A stretch of DNA of 64,000 nt from Fistulifera solaris (Eukaryota > Bacillariophyta > Bacillariophyceae > Naviculales > Stauroneidaceae): positions 744,001-808,000 of the forward strand of contig AP026144.1 in assembly GCA_030295235.1 (NCBI GenBank), in the 5' to 3' direction. This document shows positions 7,561 through 52,493 of the stretch, piece by piece. The position numbers and the translations under genes are program-made. The notes below the pieces were generated by a model. The model ran no database searches, had not been told where the DNA came from, and was given only the letters and a program-made list of their open reading frames with translations. Position 1 is the stretch's first letter, and each line of letters opens with the position of its first letter.

Positions 7561-8970
7561 ATGGAGACTAATAATGCCGATGAAAACGATGAATGCAATC
7601 TCGACAACACTCTCATTGAAAGTTTATTCTACAACGAGATGATGCTGATGGAAGAATCACCGTCACTTCTTTTGTCGATATTGTCGGCAGATGGAACTCC
7701 CTCTGTAGATACTAATACGTTGATGGGGACTTCATTATGGGGTCAATTAGGTTCACCGAGTCAGCCGCCCGTGCCGCAGCCAGCGCACGTCCCGCAGTAT
7801 TCTCACCAGCAACAGGCACAACAGGAAGCACCGAAATTGGAAGCAACACTGGCCACTCCGAATCCCTTGGTACCGATCTCAGGGGTGATGAGTTATCAGA
7901 ATGCTGGAGGTGTTGCCGTAGCGCCTCTTTCGGTTTCGGAACCCCTGGTATCGCAGGCGCAAGTACCAGCCTCAACAGCAAAGCCAAGTACGATCGATGA
8001 GGCAGAGAAACGCAAGAAACTGGTTTCTCAGTTCGCCACCATGGCGTCTCGATTGGGTATTCACTTGCCACCACAAGTATTGCGTGCATCTATGGAAGGC
8101 CGACAAGTCGCTGTTCCAGCCGTAGCCACACCCACGGGAGACTCCGCATCGAGGGTTCAACCGGCTTCTCCCTTTCCTGTGACCTCCGGCAACACAGCAT
8201 CATTGCAGCCGATTGTACAGGAACTTCAGTCGACGGCGGAAGCCGCCATTGCTGCGGTATCGAAGAAACACCCTTTAGAAGAGAATGCCTCATCCGCCAA
8301 ACAACCCACGTATTCCAAACGCCGCAAAAAGGCCAGTTTAGGAGAATGCGAGCGCCGATTGGCTTCCTTACAAGCCGAGAACAATTTACTCAAACGTCAC
8401 TTGCACAACATTGCCAACAAATCGGCAGCTCTCCAGACGGAACAGAAAGCCGCGGAAGCCCAAATCCGTCATTTATGGAGAAGTAACGCGACCCAGCAGC
8501 AATTGGATGCGGCTGTGAACAATCTCACCGAACTATATTCGGATTATGGGAAACGTCGACAAGATGAACTTTCGTTTCATTTGGAGCAACTACGACGACT
8601 GGCAAATCCCACCAACGTGACGAAAATGGGTTTATGGGCACTGGGACAGCAGTCCGTTTTGAAAAAGAATCCCATTGCCGGTATGCTGCAAAAGGAACTC
8701 GACATTACCTCACAACAAGGTCGTAAAATAGTCGAGCAGCGGGAAAAGATTCGTCACGTGTCGTCGAACTTGAAAGAATGTTTGGATTTATTGGGTAAGC
8801 TGCAAACGTTATGTGAAAAGAAGACGAACATTTTTCATGATCGCTTGTCGAAGTGCCGGGAAATCTTGACACCACGACAAGTAGTGAAACTGATTCTATG
8901 GATTCATGATCACGCACAAGTCCTCGAGAATGTTTGTCCTGGATGGGGATCCGAGACACTGCATTCCTAA
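7561..8970 (+). CDS. bZIP-like transcription regulator with conserved C-terminal helix
   Basis: Single exon of 469 residues from the ATG at 7561 (METNNADENDECN). An open frame extends upstream without a better start. The first 230 residues are acidic, then Gln/Pro/Ala-rich, typical of an activation region. A basic stretch (YSKRRKKASLGECERR) leads into a heptad coiled coil (LASLQAENNLLKRHLHNIAN). The canonical Asn of the bZIP basic region (N-x7-R) is not evident, so DNA contact may be altered. The C-terminal part (LTPRQVVKLILWIHDHAQVL) resembles the conserved tail seen in a class of stramenopile bZIP proteins. Nuclear location is inferred. It could instead be a coiled-coil cofactor. Confidence 0.65.
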   Translation: METNNADENDECNLDNTLIESLFYNEMMLMEESPSLLLSILSADGTPSVDTNTLMGTSLWGQLGSPSQPPVPQPAHVPQYSHQQQAQQEAPKLEATLATPNPLVPISGVMSYQNAGGVAVAPLSVSEPLVSQAQVPASTAKPSTIDEAEKRKKLVSQFATMASRLGIHLPPQVLRASMEGRQVAVPAVATPTGDSASRVQPASPFPVTSGNTASLQPIVQELQSTAEAAIAAVSKKHPLEENASSAKQPTYSKRRKKASLGECERRLASLQAENNLLKRHLHNIANKSAALQTEQKAAEAQIRHLWRSNATQQQLDAAVNNLTELYSDYGKRRQDELSFHLEQLRRLANPTNVTKMGLWALGQQSVLKKNPIAGMLQKELDITSQQGRKIVEQREKIRHVSSNLKECLDLLGKLQTLCEKKTNIFHDRLSKCREILTPRQVVKLILWIHDHAQVLENVCPGWGSETLHS

Positions 8971-9764: not shown

Positions 9765-11317
9765 ATGAAGTTTTCAGTCTTCGTTTACCTGCTGTGTGCA
9801 CCTATGATGGCGAATGCCTTTCAAACTTCAACTACGAAGCCATCACTGAATCCGGCGTCCTCGTCGGCGTTATTCGGTATCAAGAAGAAGAAGAGCGACC
9901 TTACCACGCAAGTTCCGGCTTTAAATCGTCACGCACCCCGTAAAATCTGTTTAATGGTAGAACCTACTCCCTTTACTCATGTCTCTGGATATGCGAACCG
10001 ATTCAAAGAGATGTTAAAATTTATGAAAAAGGCCGGCGACGATGTCGAAGTCTTGACCGTCGATTCTAAGACTCCGGCAGCCAAGCTGCCCACGGATTTT
10101 AAAGGCTATCCCATTCAACACACGCAAGGGTTCACCTTTCCCTTATACAATCATATTTCCCTCACTGTAGATTTGCCCGAAATGAAGGGTGCTCGCATTT
10201 TGGAAGAAAAGCAAGTCGACTTGATCCACGTCACGTCTCCCGGGTTCATGCTCTTTGCGGCTATTTTCTACGCCCGGGTGATGTGCACCCTCTGGTGATG
10301 AGTTATCACACACATCTTCCGACCTACGGTACGTTACTGTTATGCAATCATGCAAAAAGGCGTTTATACTATTTTCTGACCAAACGCTTTTGCTCAGGTA
10401 AAAACTACCTAGGCTTTATTCCAGGCATTGAGAATCTTTGCTGGGAAGCATTGCGCTGGGCGCATTCGCGAGCTGACTTGACTTTGGTGACGTCCCCACA
10501 AATGCAAGATGAGTTGCGCAAGAACGGCATCCCGCGTGTGGATGTGTGGCGCAAGGGTATTGACACGGAGCGCTTCGATCCAGCATTTAAAAGTCTGGAA
10601 ATGCGTCAGAGAATGTCGAATGGCAATCCCGATGATTTCTTGATGGTGTATGTGGGACGATTGGGGGCCGAAAAGCGACTCAAGGATATCAAAGCGATGC
10701 AAGAAAAGTTGGGACCCAAAGCTCGACTATGCATTGTCGGTACCGGACCGCAGAAGGAGGAGCTAGAAGAGTTCTTTGACGGTACTAACACTGTATTTAT
10801 GGGGCAACTGTCGGGAGATGAATTGTCTCAAGCATTTGCATCAGCGGATGTGTTTGTCATGCCTTCCGATTCCGAGACTCTTGGATTTGTCGTACTCGAA
10901 AGTATGGCCAGTGGTGTTCCAGTTGTGGGTGCTGCAGCTGGTGGTATTCCCGACTTGATCGATAACGAGCAAACAGGATACTTGTGCGAACCTGGCAACA
11001 CCGAAGACTTTGTGAAGCGTTTGCGTGCTCTGCAGGATCCGGAACATCGCACGGCCATGGGCAAGGCGGCTCGCGCGGAAGCCGAGAAATGGGGCTGGGA
11101 GGCAGCAACTTCTTATTTGCGAAATGTTCAGTATGAAAAAGCGCTAATCAACTTTCACAGTCGTGCCTTTGGCGGATTTGGTCGACCTCGTACGGCTGGC
11201 ATGTGGCGATTGTTAGGATGGCGCATCCGGCACATTTTCCGAAGAGCTGTCCGCTCTCCGGTCACCTTATTGTCTTCTCTGCAAAGGCGCTGGTGTCAGT
11301 TGCGTGGAGTGGTTTAA
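9765..11317 (+). CDS. SQD2: Plastid sulfoquinovosyl transferase SQD2 (sulfolipid synthase)
   Basis: A GT4 glycosyltransferase that moves sulfoquinovose from UDP-SQ to diacylglycerol, the last step of SQDG synthesis. The N-terminus is a signal peptide ending MANA|FQTSTT, the diatom plastid import motif. Family landmarks are EPTPFTHVSGYANRF, VDLIHVTSPGF, PLVMSYHTHLPTYG and the GT-B donor motif SETLGFVVLESMASGVPVV. A 69-base intron (10329-10397) joins THLPTYG to KNYLGFIPGIENL; it keeps frame and has no stop. Near 10277 the frame changes by one base between FAAIFYAR and DVHPLVMSYH inside a conserved block, so this is either an indel error or a real frameshift. The remainder looks complete. It probably acts in the plastid envelope or thylakoid. 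Confidence 0.9.
10329..10397 (+). other. Intron of SQD2 that could be read through in frame
   Basis: GTACGTTACT at the donor and TTTTGCTCAG at the acceptor. The 69 bases are 23 codons without a stop. Splicing restores the SQD2 family sequence (PTYGKNYLGFIPG). Confidence 0.75.
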
Positions 11318-16628: not shown

Positions 16629-17615
16629 ATGCACTTCTCAATACTGGTATCGGCATGCGCTTTTGTGTCGGTGCAGAGCTTTACAGTAGCACCATCGGTT
16701 CATCGACGACCTTCCACATTCTCCTTATCATCGGCTACATCCCTTAACCATCAGCAAGAGATTCAAGAAGCATCGGGAGTCACAAGCAAGAAGTCATGGA
16801 AAGATGACGGCTTTGTCTTTGGCTTGAGCGATTCGGGTCTGCAACGACCGAAAGGCAAGGCACCCATCATTGTCGTCGATGGAGATTCTCTCGAAACCAA
16901 GCCCTATCAAGTCGTTTTGGTCCTATCGACACTGCTCGGTCACGCGGCCTTTTTCGTGTGCGCCATGATGGGTATTTGGGCGCAGCAGAATTATCAACTG
17001 GGACCCGCCGCTCTCCAAATGACTAGCTTGACACTTGCGAGTTGGGTTTTGGCCGATTTGGGCAGTGGCATTTTGCATTGGTCTGTGGATAATTATGGGA
17101 ACGGACGAACTCCCATCATGGGAGGGATCATTGCCGCCTTTCAAGGGCATCATTCAGCGCCTTGGACGATTACGCAACGCGGCTTTTGCAACAATGTTTA
17201 CAAATTGTGTTTGCCGTTTGGTCTAGCGCCCGTCACACTCTTGACATTGCTCGGTGCGGGGCCCCAGACGATACTATTTGCCACGACGTTTTGTGTATTG
17301 GAAATATTATCACAAGAATTTCATAAATGGTCGCATATGCTGGGAAGCGAGACGCCGGGTTGGGTAAATCGTCTACAATCCCTAGGACTCACCGTGTCGC
17401 GCAAAACACACGGATTGCACCATTTAGCTCCGTACGAAGGCAATTACTCTATTATTTCAGGCGTCACAAATCGTGTTTTGGATCAGACAGGTTTCTTCCG
17501 AAGACTGGAGCACTTGATATATCGATGGAATGGAGTAGAAGCGAACGCGTGGAAGCTAGATTCCGAGCTGAAGGAGAGGACTTTGCGTGGGGACTATTCA
17601 CTGCGCAAAGGATGA
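16629..17615 (+). CDS. FAD4: Plastid FAD4-type phosphatidylglycerol desaturase
   Basis: 328 residues, single exon. The signal peptide ends VSVQS|FTVAPS, fitting plastid import. All His blocks of the FAD4/TMEM189/CarF family are present: ADLGSGILHWSVDNYG, FQGHHSAPWTITQRGFCNN, SQEFHKWSHM and KTHGLHHLAPYEGNYSI. Hydrophobic helices lie around residues 95-145 and 195-225. In plants FAD4 puts the trans-3 double bond into the sn-2 palmitate of plastid PG, and diatoms contain this lipid; that substrate is inferred. The related animal and bacterial enzymes act on plasmanyl lipids, which is the main alternative. Confidence 0.88.
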   Translation: MHFSILVSACAFVSVQSFTVAPSVHRRPSTFSLSSATSLNHQQEIQEASGVTSKKSWKDDGFVFGLSDSGLQRPKGKAPIIVVDGDSLETKPYQVVLVLSTLLGHAAFFVCAMMGIWAQQNYQLGPAALQMTSLTLASWVLADLGSGILHWSVDNYGNGRTPIMGGIIAAFQGHHSAPWTITQRGFCNNVYKLCLPFGLAPVTLLTLLGAGPQTILFATTFCVLEILSQEFHKWSHMLGSETPGWVNRLQSLGLTVSRKTHGLHHLAPYEGNYSIISGVTNRVLDQTGFFRRLEHLIYRWNGVEANAWKLDSELKERTLRGDYSLRKG

Positions 17616-48378: not shown

Positions 48379-48976
48379 TAGACGTTCATTTTCAGTCGGA
48401 TTTCAACGTCCCCAACTTGTACACGGCATTTTCCTCTTTTTTACAGAGATCGATGGAAAACAAAGGGTATGAGCTTCTTAATCCTAAACTCGTGCTATAC
48501 ATTCTCTTTGAATCAGCGTACTTCAAAGACAGCTGCAGTCTATTCTAGGATCTGAAATCACGTTGTTACATTGATAAGTCGAGGTACATCAACGGTTCCT
48601 ACCATAGAAAATATGAATAATATTGACCTTGCTGATCGCTTACAAACTCGCTTCACACTCTTAACAGTGTTAAGCCTGACATGGATTCAAATCAAGCCTA
48701 ACTAAATGCTCTGCCGATACAATGCAGTTTGCAGGATAACAGCCTACTACTCTAGATGAGTGAATGATTACATTATTATGAATAGTAAATCGGGTTCAAT
48801 CCGTGACTCATGACGGGTTCATGGATTGACGTCATCGCAGCCCTTGCTCGAAAGAACGTCAAACCACATCATCGGACGCCGCGAAATCAAGGAGACAATA
48901 ACAGAAGTCCAAGCAACTACAAGTAGTGCTTCAAATTTTCCTACTTGTGTTGTTCCAATCAACAAGAAGACGAACG
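48379..48976. other. Intergenic before the selenoprotein gene
   Basis: Contains GGGTTCAATCCG near 48792, which resembles a tRNA T-arm, but no cloverleaf can be built around it. The last 150 bases are promoter and 5' UTR. Confidence 0.45.
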
Positions 48977-49816
48977 ATGCGAGTCGCTGTTGCTACTGCC
49001 GCTTTGGCGGCTTTGGCAGTCGGTGCTACTGCATTCCAACCTCACAAATCGTCATCGAGAAGCGTGTTTGTGCCTTCAACCAGCATCTTGGCTAGTTCGA
49101 CAGTCGATAATACAAATGATGCCCCTTGCGCTATGCCTGACAATGTGGGAGTACCCCCTGGAGTCACGGCTAAAACACTGAGATCGGCTGTTCTCACGAA
49201 TGCCGACGGCGAATCCGTTCGATTGGGTGACAAAATGGGCCCCGGCACGTCGATAGTGATTTTCCTACGTCACATGGGATGACTATACTGCTGGGGTTAT
49301 GCCAAATCATGGTGTGAACTCCAGCAAAAGGAAGGATCGAATGATATTGCTGGTCCTATCTTTGTCAGTATCGGTGACAAGGAAAAGCTCGAACTCTTCT
49401 TGAAAAAGAACCCGTATGTTTCGCGTGAGCAGATTTTGGTCGATAACTTCAACGACTTTGCCGCCTACAAAGCGGCAGGATTCGGACGCTTTGATGAACA
49501 AAGCAAAGAAACGATCAAGGCCGCAAAAGATAACATGGCCTCACCAGACCTAGGTGGCTGGAAGGGCGCGATGACTTACCTATCAAGTGTAGGGAAATTA
49601 TCTCCCATTCCTGCCGACATAAAATTCGGTCAAATTCCGGAAGGAGTATTGCGCCTTGGTGGAACCTTTGTCGTTTCTGGAAATGACATTGTATACCAAT
49701 GGAGTGATCGACTTCCAGGCGACCACCCTGACATTGAGAAAGTGTGGAGCATCGCGAAGGAGGCTTCTCACAAGAAGGGACTCTTTTCGCAAGTCTCGAA
49801 AGTCTTCGGTCTATAA
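48977..49816 (+). CDS. SELENOU: Plastid SelU/PRXL2-type selenoprotein (AhpC/TSA2 fold), UxxC
   Basis: 280 codons if the UGA at 49280-49282 is read as selenocysteine; the frame is otherwise open across it. The signal peptide ends LAVGATA|FQPHKSSSR, the plastid import motif. The redox block is IVIFLRHMG-U-LYCWGYAKSW, so Sec sits where relatives have the first Cys of FLRxxGCxxC, giving a UxxC motif. The later RLGGTFVVSGNDIVYQW is the usual end of the PRXL2/FAM213 thioredoxin-like fold. The 3' UTR holds a SECIS-like hairpin at 49866-49918. It is probably a thioredoxin-like peroxidase or reductase in the plastid. The alternative is a pseudogene with a stop, made unlikely by the SECIS and the exact Cys position. 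Confidence 0.87.
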
Positions 49817-49865
49817 TATATTAAGAGTAGCCGCATGGGGTTATTGGTATGTCTCGGAGGTTTTG

Positions 49866-49918
49866 AACTGTACATGACGCTGTGACAATATCGATCGTTA
49901 CAGCTGAAGAAACAAGTG
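49866..49918 (+). promoter_or_regulatory. SECIS-like element in the selenoprotein 3' UTR
   Basis: ATGA at 49874-49877, then stem GCTGTGAC (49879-49886), AA at the start of the apical loop (49887-49888, loop AATATCGATC), the complementary stem GTTACAGC (49897-49904) and TGA (49905-49907). This is the eukaryotic SECIS order ATGA - AA - TGA. A lower helix ACTGT / ACAAGT with one bulged A flanks it. The upper stem is 8 bp, somewhat short for a SECIS. Confidence 0.78.
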
Positions 49919-50137
49919 AACGCACAGCATACTGCAATCAAAGATTATACACTGTATTAATATTGATAATCTTTTTAGCCGCTATTTGCTTTTCGAGTTG
50001 CATTTCGCTTGCAAAGAAATGACACAAGAGCTCTGCTAAAAAACCAAAGGAAACTATAAGCTTGTTAAATCTAGTACCGGTAGGATTCTCTTTTCGGGTT
50101 GAACCGTTAAATACTGAGTAATTCTGTTCCTACAGAT
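49919..50137. other. Intergenic
   Basis: A short spacer with AGTACCGGTAGG near 50075. No gene is seen. Confidence 0.4.
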
Positions 50138-52493
50138 ATGGCTAGTTGTGTGGGCTTTAGTCCGAAGGAGACATCGGAAATTAATTATGAAACGTCACTA
50201 GCACGCCTGTCGACGTCTCTTTTTTCTCAGCGAGCGAGAACACGATTACTATTACGTACAAATACTTGCAGAGCTGCTTTGCATCTATTTTATTCCCCAT
50301 TCTCTCTTTTTCTGCATAGGACAAACAATGTGTTCATTAAGCGATCAAATATCACAAAACTCTTCACAGATTCCCGTTTCAGTTCGCACCGTTTTGCGCG
50401 TGCGGCCGTTTTGAAGAGAGAGCGCGATGATGCTGAAGTTTTGAAACCGATCGACACATCGACAGTCGTCATGGGGCCGCAGCCAGCAGTTCAAATGCTT
50501 TCGCCTTCCTCTGCTCTTGTGAAGCAAACTATAGACCCTGAGAACAATCATGATGAAGACTTCTCCTTTGATCTTGTCCTGAGGTCGACCTCCACGCAAG
50601 AAGACATGTACTTCGCGTTTGGATCCAACATGGCGCAACAAGCCATGGAGCCTTTGAAGGCTTCAAAGGACCATGACAATATCCAAACTTCCTTAATTAT
50701 TAGCATGGGGCTTTCTAACTCGGGAAAAACCTTTTCTTGCTGGGGTGATCATTGTCTGGGTACTCAAAAGCTGCCCCAAGACGGCATGTTGCCTCGCATT
50801 TTGGATTCATTATTTGCTCAGTCAGCACACTTTGTCGAAAAGAAGCAAGGGCTTTCTTTTGGAGTTGAAATATCGGTGGTTCAAGTGGGGAACCGTGATG
50901 GTGTTATCAATGATCTGCTCAAGTCGTCGTCTCGCCGCTCGATTCGCTCGACAATATCATCTTTTTCTCGTAATCGAAATGTCGATAGCCCCTTTCAAAG
51001 TCACAATTCCGTCATGATTGAACAGGACCCGATATCACTGGAATGTCGGCTGAAAAATCAGCAACGCAAGCTTTGTCTTTCATGGGAAGATGCACGACTG
51101 GCATTGAAGAAAGCTGTCAAAATCCGACACAATAATGCCAGACCTGGCCACGTGCTAGTACAAACTCGCCCCGTAATGGTGAATCGATCGCTCAAAGTAG
51201 TTGAAAAGGGAGGAATGATAGCCATTCTGGAAATGGAGAGCCTCATTAATGGGAAGAAAATAAAGGCCGGAAGAATTAAAGATACTATTCCCAACCGGAC
51301 CGATGCTTATGGGTCCGTGATGCAATGTCTTCGGGTGGCACTTGACAACCAAAATGACCCAAACAATGCAAAGAACGTACCGTTTGTCCAACACAAAGTA
51401 ACTATGCTACTGCAGTCCATTTTTCTGCCAGAAAATACTGATTCCATTGACGTGACTGTTCTTGTGACGGCATATCCTGGAGATCGCGATTACATAGAGA
51501 AAAAAAGAACTCCTCAGGGACATGCAGCTACTTCGCCAAAAAGTTCGAACGAATTATGTGATTACTGAAATGGCTTCGAGCAAAAGCATGAAAAGTGATT
51601 TCGAAGCTAACTGCGCCTACGATTGCACTAGTCGGAATCAGACGAGTCGTCTACGAAAACACAGCAATGACTTCTCTGACGGGGGTGGAAGAAAAACCGA
51701 AAAGGAAAAGGCGCTTAACGAGCGAAAAAGTCCCGAAAAACTATCATCCAATGTTGGTGCCACCAAGAGTAAGAAGACTCCTGATCTTGATGTAATGTTT
51801 AAGCGATGCGATAGGTCGGGCGAAGATATTGTACCTCTTCCACCGCCACCTGTTGCCCCTGGATATCGGCCTCGTTCGGCTTTGTTTCAACAAAATAGGT
51901 CCGAACCACGACTTTTGTCTCCCCGTCGAATGTCTGTGTGCAAAGCGTCGGCCCCTGTGGAAGAGACGATTTCTTTTTCCGAGGCAAATCTCGCTCTTGT
52001 TGACTTCCCAGGGGTGGTAGTTCCGAAGAGTCTTATGCCGACGAAAAATCTCAAAGAAGAACAAGAGGCTGGAGATGATGAGGGTTACATCAGTTTCGTG
52101 GAGGACCACGGTGATGGATATCAGGTCAGAGAGATGGCGCCAATCGCCTTTTCGACATGTGATTCGGTGCAAATTTCTGGTCGCGCTTTCAAATCTCGGG
52201 ATACTTTATTAGGAAAACGCGTGGAATTTTTGAGCAAAGAAAATGAATACCTAAGAGCTGAGAATGAAAGTATCAAACGTGAGCTGGTGTACTTGAAGCA
52301 AGAACTTGAAAATAGATTTTCCATGGAGTCGCGTTGGAAAGCGTCGAATAGCTTACGAAAGGCACATGCAGAGGAAAATCATACGTTTGGCCGCTATAAG
52401 CAACCTTCTTATTTGATTCCTTTTGGTTCAGGATCAACCCGAAGTCACACGAAAGAGCCCTCCGTCTCCGATATTTCCAATAGATACCCCTAG
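50138..52493 (+). CDS. Divergent kinesin-like protein
   Basis: Kinesin motor landmarks appear in order: FSFDLVLRSTSTQEDMY, a P-loop SMGLSNSGKTFSCWG, QDGMLPRILDSLFAQ, VGNRDGVINDLLKSSS and VPFVQHKVTMLLQSIFLPE (usually VPyRdSkLTxLLq). Switch I (NxxSSRSH) and switch II (DLAGSE) are not recognisable, so ATP hydrolysis may be altered or lost. The C-terminal part has disordered Ser/Pro regions and a coiled coil (FLSKENEYLRAENESIKREL). An in-frame region at 50255-50319 (GTACAAATAC to CTGCATAG) may be an intron, since it encodes an odd hydrophobic stretch. The frame changes between 51522 and 51568, beside an A5 run. It could be a non-motor kinesin relative. Confidence 0.65.

Follow-up and report, generated by a model that had tools for sequence, protein, structure and literature searches.

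The gene described here lies in a 64,000-nucleotide (nt) stretch of the genome of the diatom Fistulifera solaris (contig AP026144.1, positions 744,001 to 808,000), hereafter the window, on the contig denoted C22 of the 51.7-Mb genome. It is predicted to encode a selenoprotein related to PRXL2, in which an internal UGA is very probably read as selenocysteine (Sec) in the active site of a redox enzyme. The features of the gene are listed below in window coordinates, where A1 is an alignment of 26 rows comprising the window protein and its homologues, SECIS stands for selenocysteine insertion sequence and UTR for untranslated region.

48977..49816, + strand: coding sequence of the predicted PRXL2-like selenoprotein, 279 codons plus TAA, with a single in-frame TGA
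48977..49036, + strand: N-terminus MRVAVATAALAALAVGATA-F, signal-peptide-like start of a possible plastid presequence (a hydrophobic stretch, then Phe20)
49256..49324, + strand: 69-nt GT...AG stretch deleted in the public protein FisN_7Lh351, the removal of which reproduces that protein exactly
49280..49282, + strand: predicted selenocysteine codon, TGA, codon 102; Cys in 15 of 120 listed homologues
49289..49291, + strand: Cys105, the Cys of the UxxC site, identical in every row of A1
49860..49911, + strand: conserved 3' UTR block around the SECIS-like core, identical to the homoeologue at 49 of 52 bases
49874..49907, + strand: SECIS-like core, ATGA-C-8 bp-AA loop-8 bp-TGA, identical to the homoeologue at 33 of 34 bases

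The frame beginning at the ATG is open on both sides of codon 102, which sits in the context FLRHMG-U-LYC (motif FLRHMGULYCW). An earlier reading of this DNA (the original prediction) had placed a UGA at the first Cys of an FLRxxGCxxC block, giving U-L-Y-C, within a frame that is intact on either side; both statements are borne out, and the homoeologous copy of the gene keeps the TGA and the frame. The residues L97, R98, H99, C105, W106, Y108 and W112 are invariant in A1. As is expected of a eukaryotic selenoprotein gene, the TGA falls at a conserved Cys position and the coding sequence continues past it.

The homoeologue (G000:C21:847517-848353) encodes a protein that is 91% identical and contains the same single TGA. 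The ratio of nonsynonymous to synonymous substitution rates (dN/dS) between the two copies is 0.276 for codons 1-60, 0.111 for codons 61-101 and 0.106 for codons 103-279, and the last segment carries 32 silent changes against 15 replacements. The lower ratio and the excess of silent changes past the TGA show that this part is under selection as protein. It is extremely unlikely that the TGA is a true stop, the mark of a pseudogene or an assembly error: the same TGA is present in a separate homoeologous copy, purifying selection extends over 177 codons beyond it, the 3' hairpin is conserved and 83 of the 120 listed homologues begin right after the same place.

The closest protein match among those listed is FisN_7Lh351 (P0002; F. 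solaris, 256 residues), which is identical to the window protein at its 93 N-terminal and 163 C-terminal residues and has none of the 23 residues in between. Automatic annotation had been expected to break the gene at the UGA, and the public model does so by splicing out the UGA together with the active site. Since exactly the catalytic segment is missing from this model, routine annotation hides the gene. If 49256-49324 were instead a genuine 69-nt in-frame intron, yielding a protein devoid of the active site and leaving the TGA untranslated, its GT...AG ends, its length divisible by three and the exactly matching F. solaris model would be accounted for, and the models from Attheya (P0026) and Pseudo-nitzschia multistriata (P0108) likewise lack the site. 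However, the stretches missing from the latter two models differ in extent and end elsewhere, and the segment encodes the most conserved block of the family, which is ungapped in 23 non-window rows of A1. Furthermore, five of the codons in or adjoining it differ between the homoeologues, three silently and two by I/V and G/S exchanges. We consider a real intron very unlikely; the 'intron' probably arose from mis-annotation and removes the active site from the model. The UniRef name of FisN_7Lh351, 'Chalcone isomerase domain-contain...', is unsupported by any family scan that was run.

The original prediction proposed checking homologues from other diatoms for Cys or Sec at this position. The protein search, which was confined to proteins 0.55-1.75 times as long as the query, gave 128 matches, of which 120 were listed; in the Sec column 15 of these have Cys and eight have W, 83 start at query residues 101-125 and 14 fall into other classes. 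Four homologues (P0017, P0107, P0116 and P0120) start at the very residue after the site. The 14 include the mis-spliced F. solaris model and four rows with F, Q, Q and K in the Sec column (P0054, P0085, P0087 and P0098, respectively), the upstream parts of which are seemingly non-homologous. We infer that the W and truncated homologues have TGA at the site. The alternative that the eight W residues are real tryptophans, so that the site is tolerant and Sec dispensable, draws on the W forms being known here as protein letters only. We regard it as most unlikely, since close relatives within those clades begin right after the site and since placing Trp between G and xYC would destroy the redox pair, for which 15 other rows have Cys. 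In a quick tree of 121 rows and few (145) columns the Cys rows require at least four changes, or three when the count is restricted to W and Cys rows; one such change places Cylindrotheca fusiformis P0007 (Cys) beside the truncated P0058 and P0065. Searches with A1 gave 71 pattern matches in prokaryote genome contigs and 28 in viral contigs, among which no relative was confirmed.

The SECIS-like core comprises, in order, ATGA (49874-49877), C, the stem arm GCTGTGAC, the loop AATATCGATC, the stem arm GTTACAGC and TGA (49905-49907). The arms GCTGTGAC/GTTACAGC form an 8-bp stem and the 10-nt loop begins with AA, in agreement with the hairpin originally described for the 3' UTR. The core, the stem and the apical AA are those expected of a SECIS and are all conserved in the homoeologue, while the lower helix is doubtful. 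Identity between the homoeologues is lower outside the block at 49860-49911 (32 of 43 bases directly upstream and 157 of 226 downstream), and all 52-base windows of the 3' region with at least 49 identities overlap it. When the 321-nt 3' region was shuffled 2000 times with its dinucleotides preserved, 30 shuffles contained any such hairpin and one reached -9.6 kcal/mol or better; among 398 tiles taken from both strands of the window, 13 had such a hairpin and two attained that energy. The distance from ATGA to AA is 9 nt, identical to that in the SelM pair of the F. solaris genome; in animal SECIS elements this spacing is generally longer.

A pairing rule (ATGA-Y, consecutive pairs, [TC]GA) replaced a SECIS covariance model because MAFFT failed to bring the 3' TGAs of all ten pieces into register. 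On both strands of the window the rule gave eight matches with at least five pairs, and at least seven pairs were found only at this gene. With this rule, devised post hoc when the hairpins were already known, an ATGA-Y hairpin ending in TGA or CGA was located at most 800 nt downstream of 12 of 16 selenoprotein-type loci and of one of 17 controls. The 16 loci are the homoeologue (L002), genes of the SelM, SelT, GPx and SelU types and a second AhpC-TSA_2 gene; the count is 11 of 15 if L002 is left aside. The rule had no match at L004, L005, L034 and L037, and the Sec block did not appear in the stretch covered at two of the 16 loci (L011 and L037). Two SECIS-like hairpins each occur within 800 nt downstream of L035 and L036 (SelM type) and of L011 and L012 (SelU type), perhaps as tandem SECIS elements or by chance. 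The GPx pair L023 and L024 has a downstream ATGA-T-stem-TGA hairpin with a loop that begins with CA rather than AA. The second of the two strong ATGA...AA...TGA hairpins listed for the window, at 8837 on the + strand (-17.3 kcal/mol), is located inside the listed open reading frame (ORF) 7561-8970 and is for this reason probably not a SECIS of that gene.

The genome encodes components of the machinery expected to accompany a eukaryotic selenoprotein gene: six tRNA-Sec loci above the cut-off, a SepSecS gene and matches to the eEFSec domain III model on contigs C12 and C11. Four of the tRNA-Sec positions form closely spaced tandem pairs (G000:C27:330126 and 330331; G000:C29:316339 and 316549). 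The available part of PMC5935921 lists five tRNAs with a UCA anticodon, labelled 'terminal codon', which we read as tRNA-Sec. Two other loci were considered as eEFSec: C4:2357341, which adjoins a tRNA-Sec and was suspected first, proved to be EF-Tu on comparison with the PDB, and C9:767312 reads as IF-2. The bacterial SelB model gave matches below its cut-off. A TGA at the MsrA locus L046 is at the end of the match and was read as an exon edge.

The best solved relative by profile is human PRXL2B, with Cys105 aligned to its Cys47, although single stretches of this match are weak alone (i-Evalue of 1 for the first). PRXL2B also heads the structural list, tied with Bcp4 and with ordinary peroxiredoxins close behind, so that PRXL2 is not distinguished by fold alone. 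The fold and the position of the CxxC pair are those of PRXL2B. The query itself had no match in Pfam up to an E value of 0.1, PF13911 (AhpC-TSA_2) included, and none in a single-sequence search of the PDB up to an E value of 1; 12 of the 26 rows of A1 match PF13911 at E values up to 0.01, and P0010 and P0011 exceed its cut-off. The best NCBIfam model, NF040769 (SelL-related redox protein), is matched by all 26 rows at E values up to 0.01, and the query scores 48.4 bits against a cut-off of 120. The hallmark of selenoprotein L is UxxU, whereas the site here is U102-L-Y-C105. The block RRPGUxxCRE, which we take to be the canonical active-site block of SelU, is seen in other F. solaris genes (L009, L010 and L012) and is replaced by FLRHMGULYCW in this one. 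The original SelU/PRXL2 label is thus partly right: it stands at the superfamily level, by virtue of the PRXL2-like fold, and does not extend to the canonical motif.

Algal SELENOU, including that of Thalassiosira pseudonana (known here by description), shares Sec in a UxxC site, an AhpC-TSA_2-type thioredoxin fold, a eukaryotic SECIS and an occurrence in diatoms. Compared with the canonical form, the present gene differs in its motif and in its plastid-type N-terminus. PRXL2B, the prostamide/prostaglandin F synthase (PDB entries 9us9 and 9usa), is the human Cys form, with 21-25% identity over the aligned part. AhpC_b of Thalassiosira oceanica, as described in the available part of PMC7539508, also combines UxxC with an AhpC_TSA domain in a diatom but is reported there with prokaryotic Cys homologues only; compared by description, it may belong to the same family.

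Diatom plastid precursors are characterized by a signal peptide, an aromatic +1 residue and a transit-like stretch. Residues 3-19 of the window protein have a mean hydropathy of 2.04 and are directly followed by Phe20, a column with F in 20, Y in one and L in one of the 22 rows that have an N-terminus (three further rows lack it). Residues 20-50 contain eight Ser, three Thr, one Arg, one Lys, two Asp and no Glu. The hydrophobic start and the conserved +1 Phe of the plastid-import motif proposed in the original prediction are therefore present, and import itself is plausible. Taken alone, import by a signal and transit presequence appears likely. The product could also be a selenoprotein of the secretory pathway (the endoplasmic reticulum, the outer compartments of the complex plastid or the exterior) rather than of the stroma, as the N-terminus is signal-peptide-like either way and selenoproteins of the SelM and SelT types are secretory in other systems. 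The aromatic residue after small residues in 21 of the 22 rows and the transit-peptide-like composition of residues 20-50 argue against this, and we regard it as unlikely.

Taken together, the sequence data strongly support a selenoprotein whose UxxC site contains Sec, with a SECIS-like hairpin of its own and an annotation broken at the UGA. We are confident, from the sequence, that this is a nuclear F. solaris selenoprotein gene in which codon 102 would be decoded as Sec by way of the 3' UTR SECIS at 49874-49907 to give a PRXL2-like product. We infer a mechanism in which cytosolic ribosomes would read the UGA with tRNA-Sec, SepSecS and eEFSec, directed by that SECIS. The product would be a thioredoxin-fold oxidoreductase of the AhpC-TSA_2 superfamily, with Sec102-Leu-Tyr-Cys105 at the start of a helix, and its precursor would cross the plastid membranes. 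The Sec102 selenolate could then attack a peroxide or disulfide and form a selenenylsulfide with the resolving Cys105; a plastid thiol donor would then reset Sec102.

Several points weigh against this interpretation. With flanks included, the folded hairpin region is no more stable than shuffles (z scores: window, two cuts, 0.60 and -1.06; homoeologue, -1.98 and -0.63), and these folds give no convincing lower SECIS helix. A search of 48900-50400 with Rfam gave three matches up to an E value of 10, with no SECIS among them, and the pairing rule is post hoc in origin. Reading W and truncation as TGA relies on protein rows rather than on the DNA of other species; the truncated row P0119 is nested in a Cys clade, so that this reading is unsafe row by row and not every truncation marks a Sec codon. 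Finally, the plausible plastid targeting is read from the N-terminal motif.

A second AhpC-TSA_2 gene with an in-frame TGA occurs in the genome as a homoeologous pair:

G000:C4:737616-738461, - strand: L063, FFRSLG-U-PLC
G000:C3:792368-793213, - strand: L064, homoeologue of L063, FFRSLG-U-PLC

Like the window gene, it has a UxxC site with TGA, a plastid-presequence-like N-terminus (ending in LVDSF) and a 3' hairpin (ATGA...CGA, downstream of both copies); it differs in its motif, FFRSLGUPLCQE, and in passing the PF13911 cut-off, at 49.8 bits. Read straight through, L063 and L064 both contain additional stops, which are perhaps introns or, in L064, introns or decay.

Two SelU proteins are reported for T. 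pseudonana in the available part of PMC2375036, and Sec-containing SELENOU in more than half of 36 algal genomes in that of PMC7539508, where Fistulifera is named once, for PDI_e, and the main text has neither 'plastid' nor 'chloroplast'. The one paper found to address the cellular site of selenium action in an alga deals with Ostreococcus tauri, and its available part (PMC8834552) predicts a chloroplast transit peptide for none of the 24 selenoproteins. The available text of PMC8329260 covers tRNA-Sec in Nitzschia inconspicua and has nothing on this PRXL2-like family; that of PMC6627142 adds nothing on it. The main text of an F. solaris expression paper lacks 'selen', and a search of titles and abstracts (few from subscription papers) pairing selenoprotein with plastid or chloroplast gave no recognized report of the family. 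SPDB may already list the gene under a different name. Selenoproteins of the SelU type have been published from diatoms before; what appears to be new is the predicted plastid subfamily and its mis-annotation.

Many diatoms require selenium and, to our knowledge, the cellular site of its action in them is poorly known. We lean towards the view that the diatom plastid receives a set of imported UxxC PRXL2-like selenoenzymes, with at least two families here (that of the window gene and that of L063/L064). The former would be widespread among the listed homologues, with several Sec/Cys replacements, and would mostly escape notice, as gene finders either truncate the active site or splice it out. 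If so, selenium would act directly in plastid redox chemistry, and a selenoprotein family with conserved plastid-type N-termini would make it possible to test concretely whether selenium supply and plastid redox control are linked.

Elsewhere in the window, the ORFs 9765-10298 and 16629-17615 (+ strand) have a hydrophobic start followed by A-F or S-F and resemble plastid precursors.
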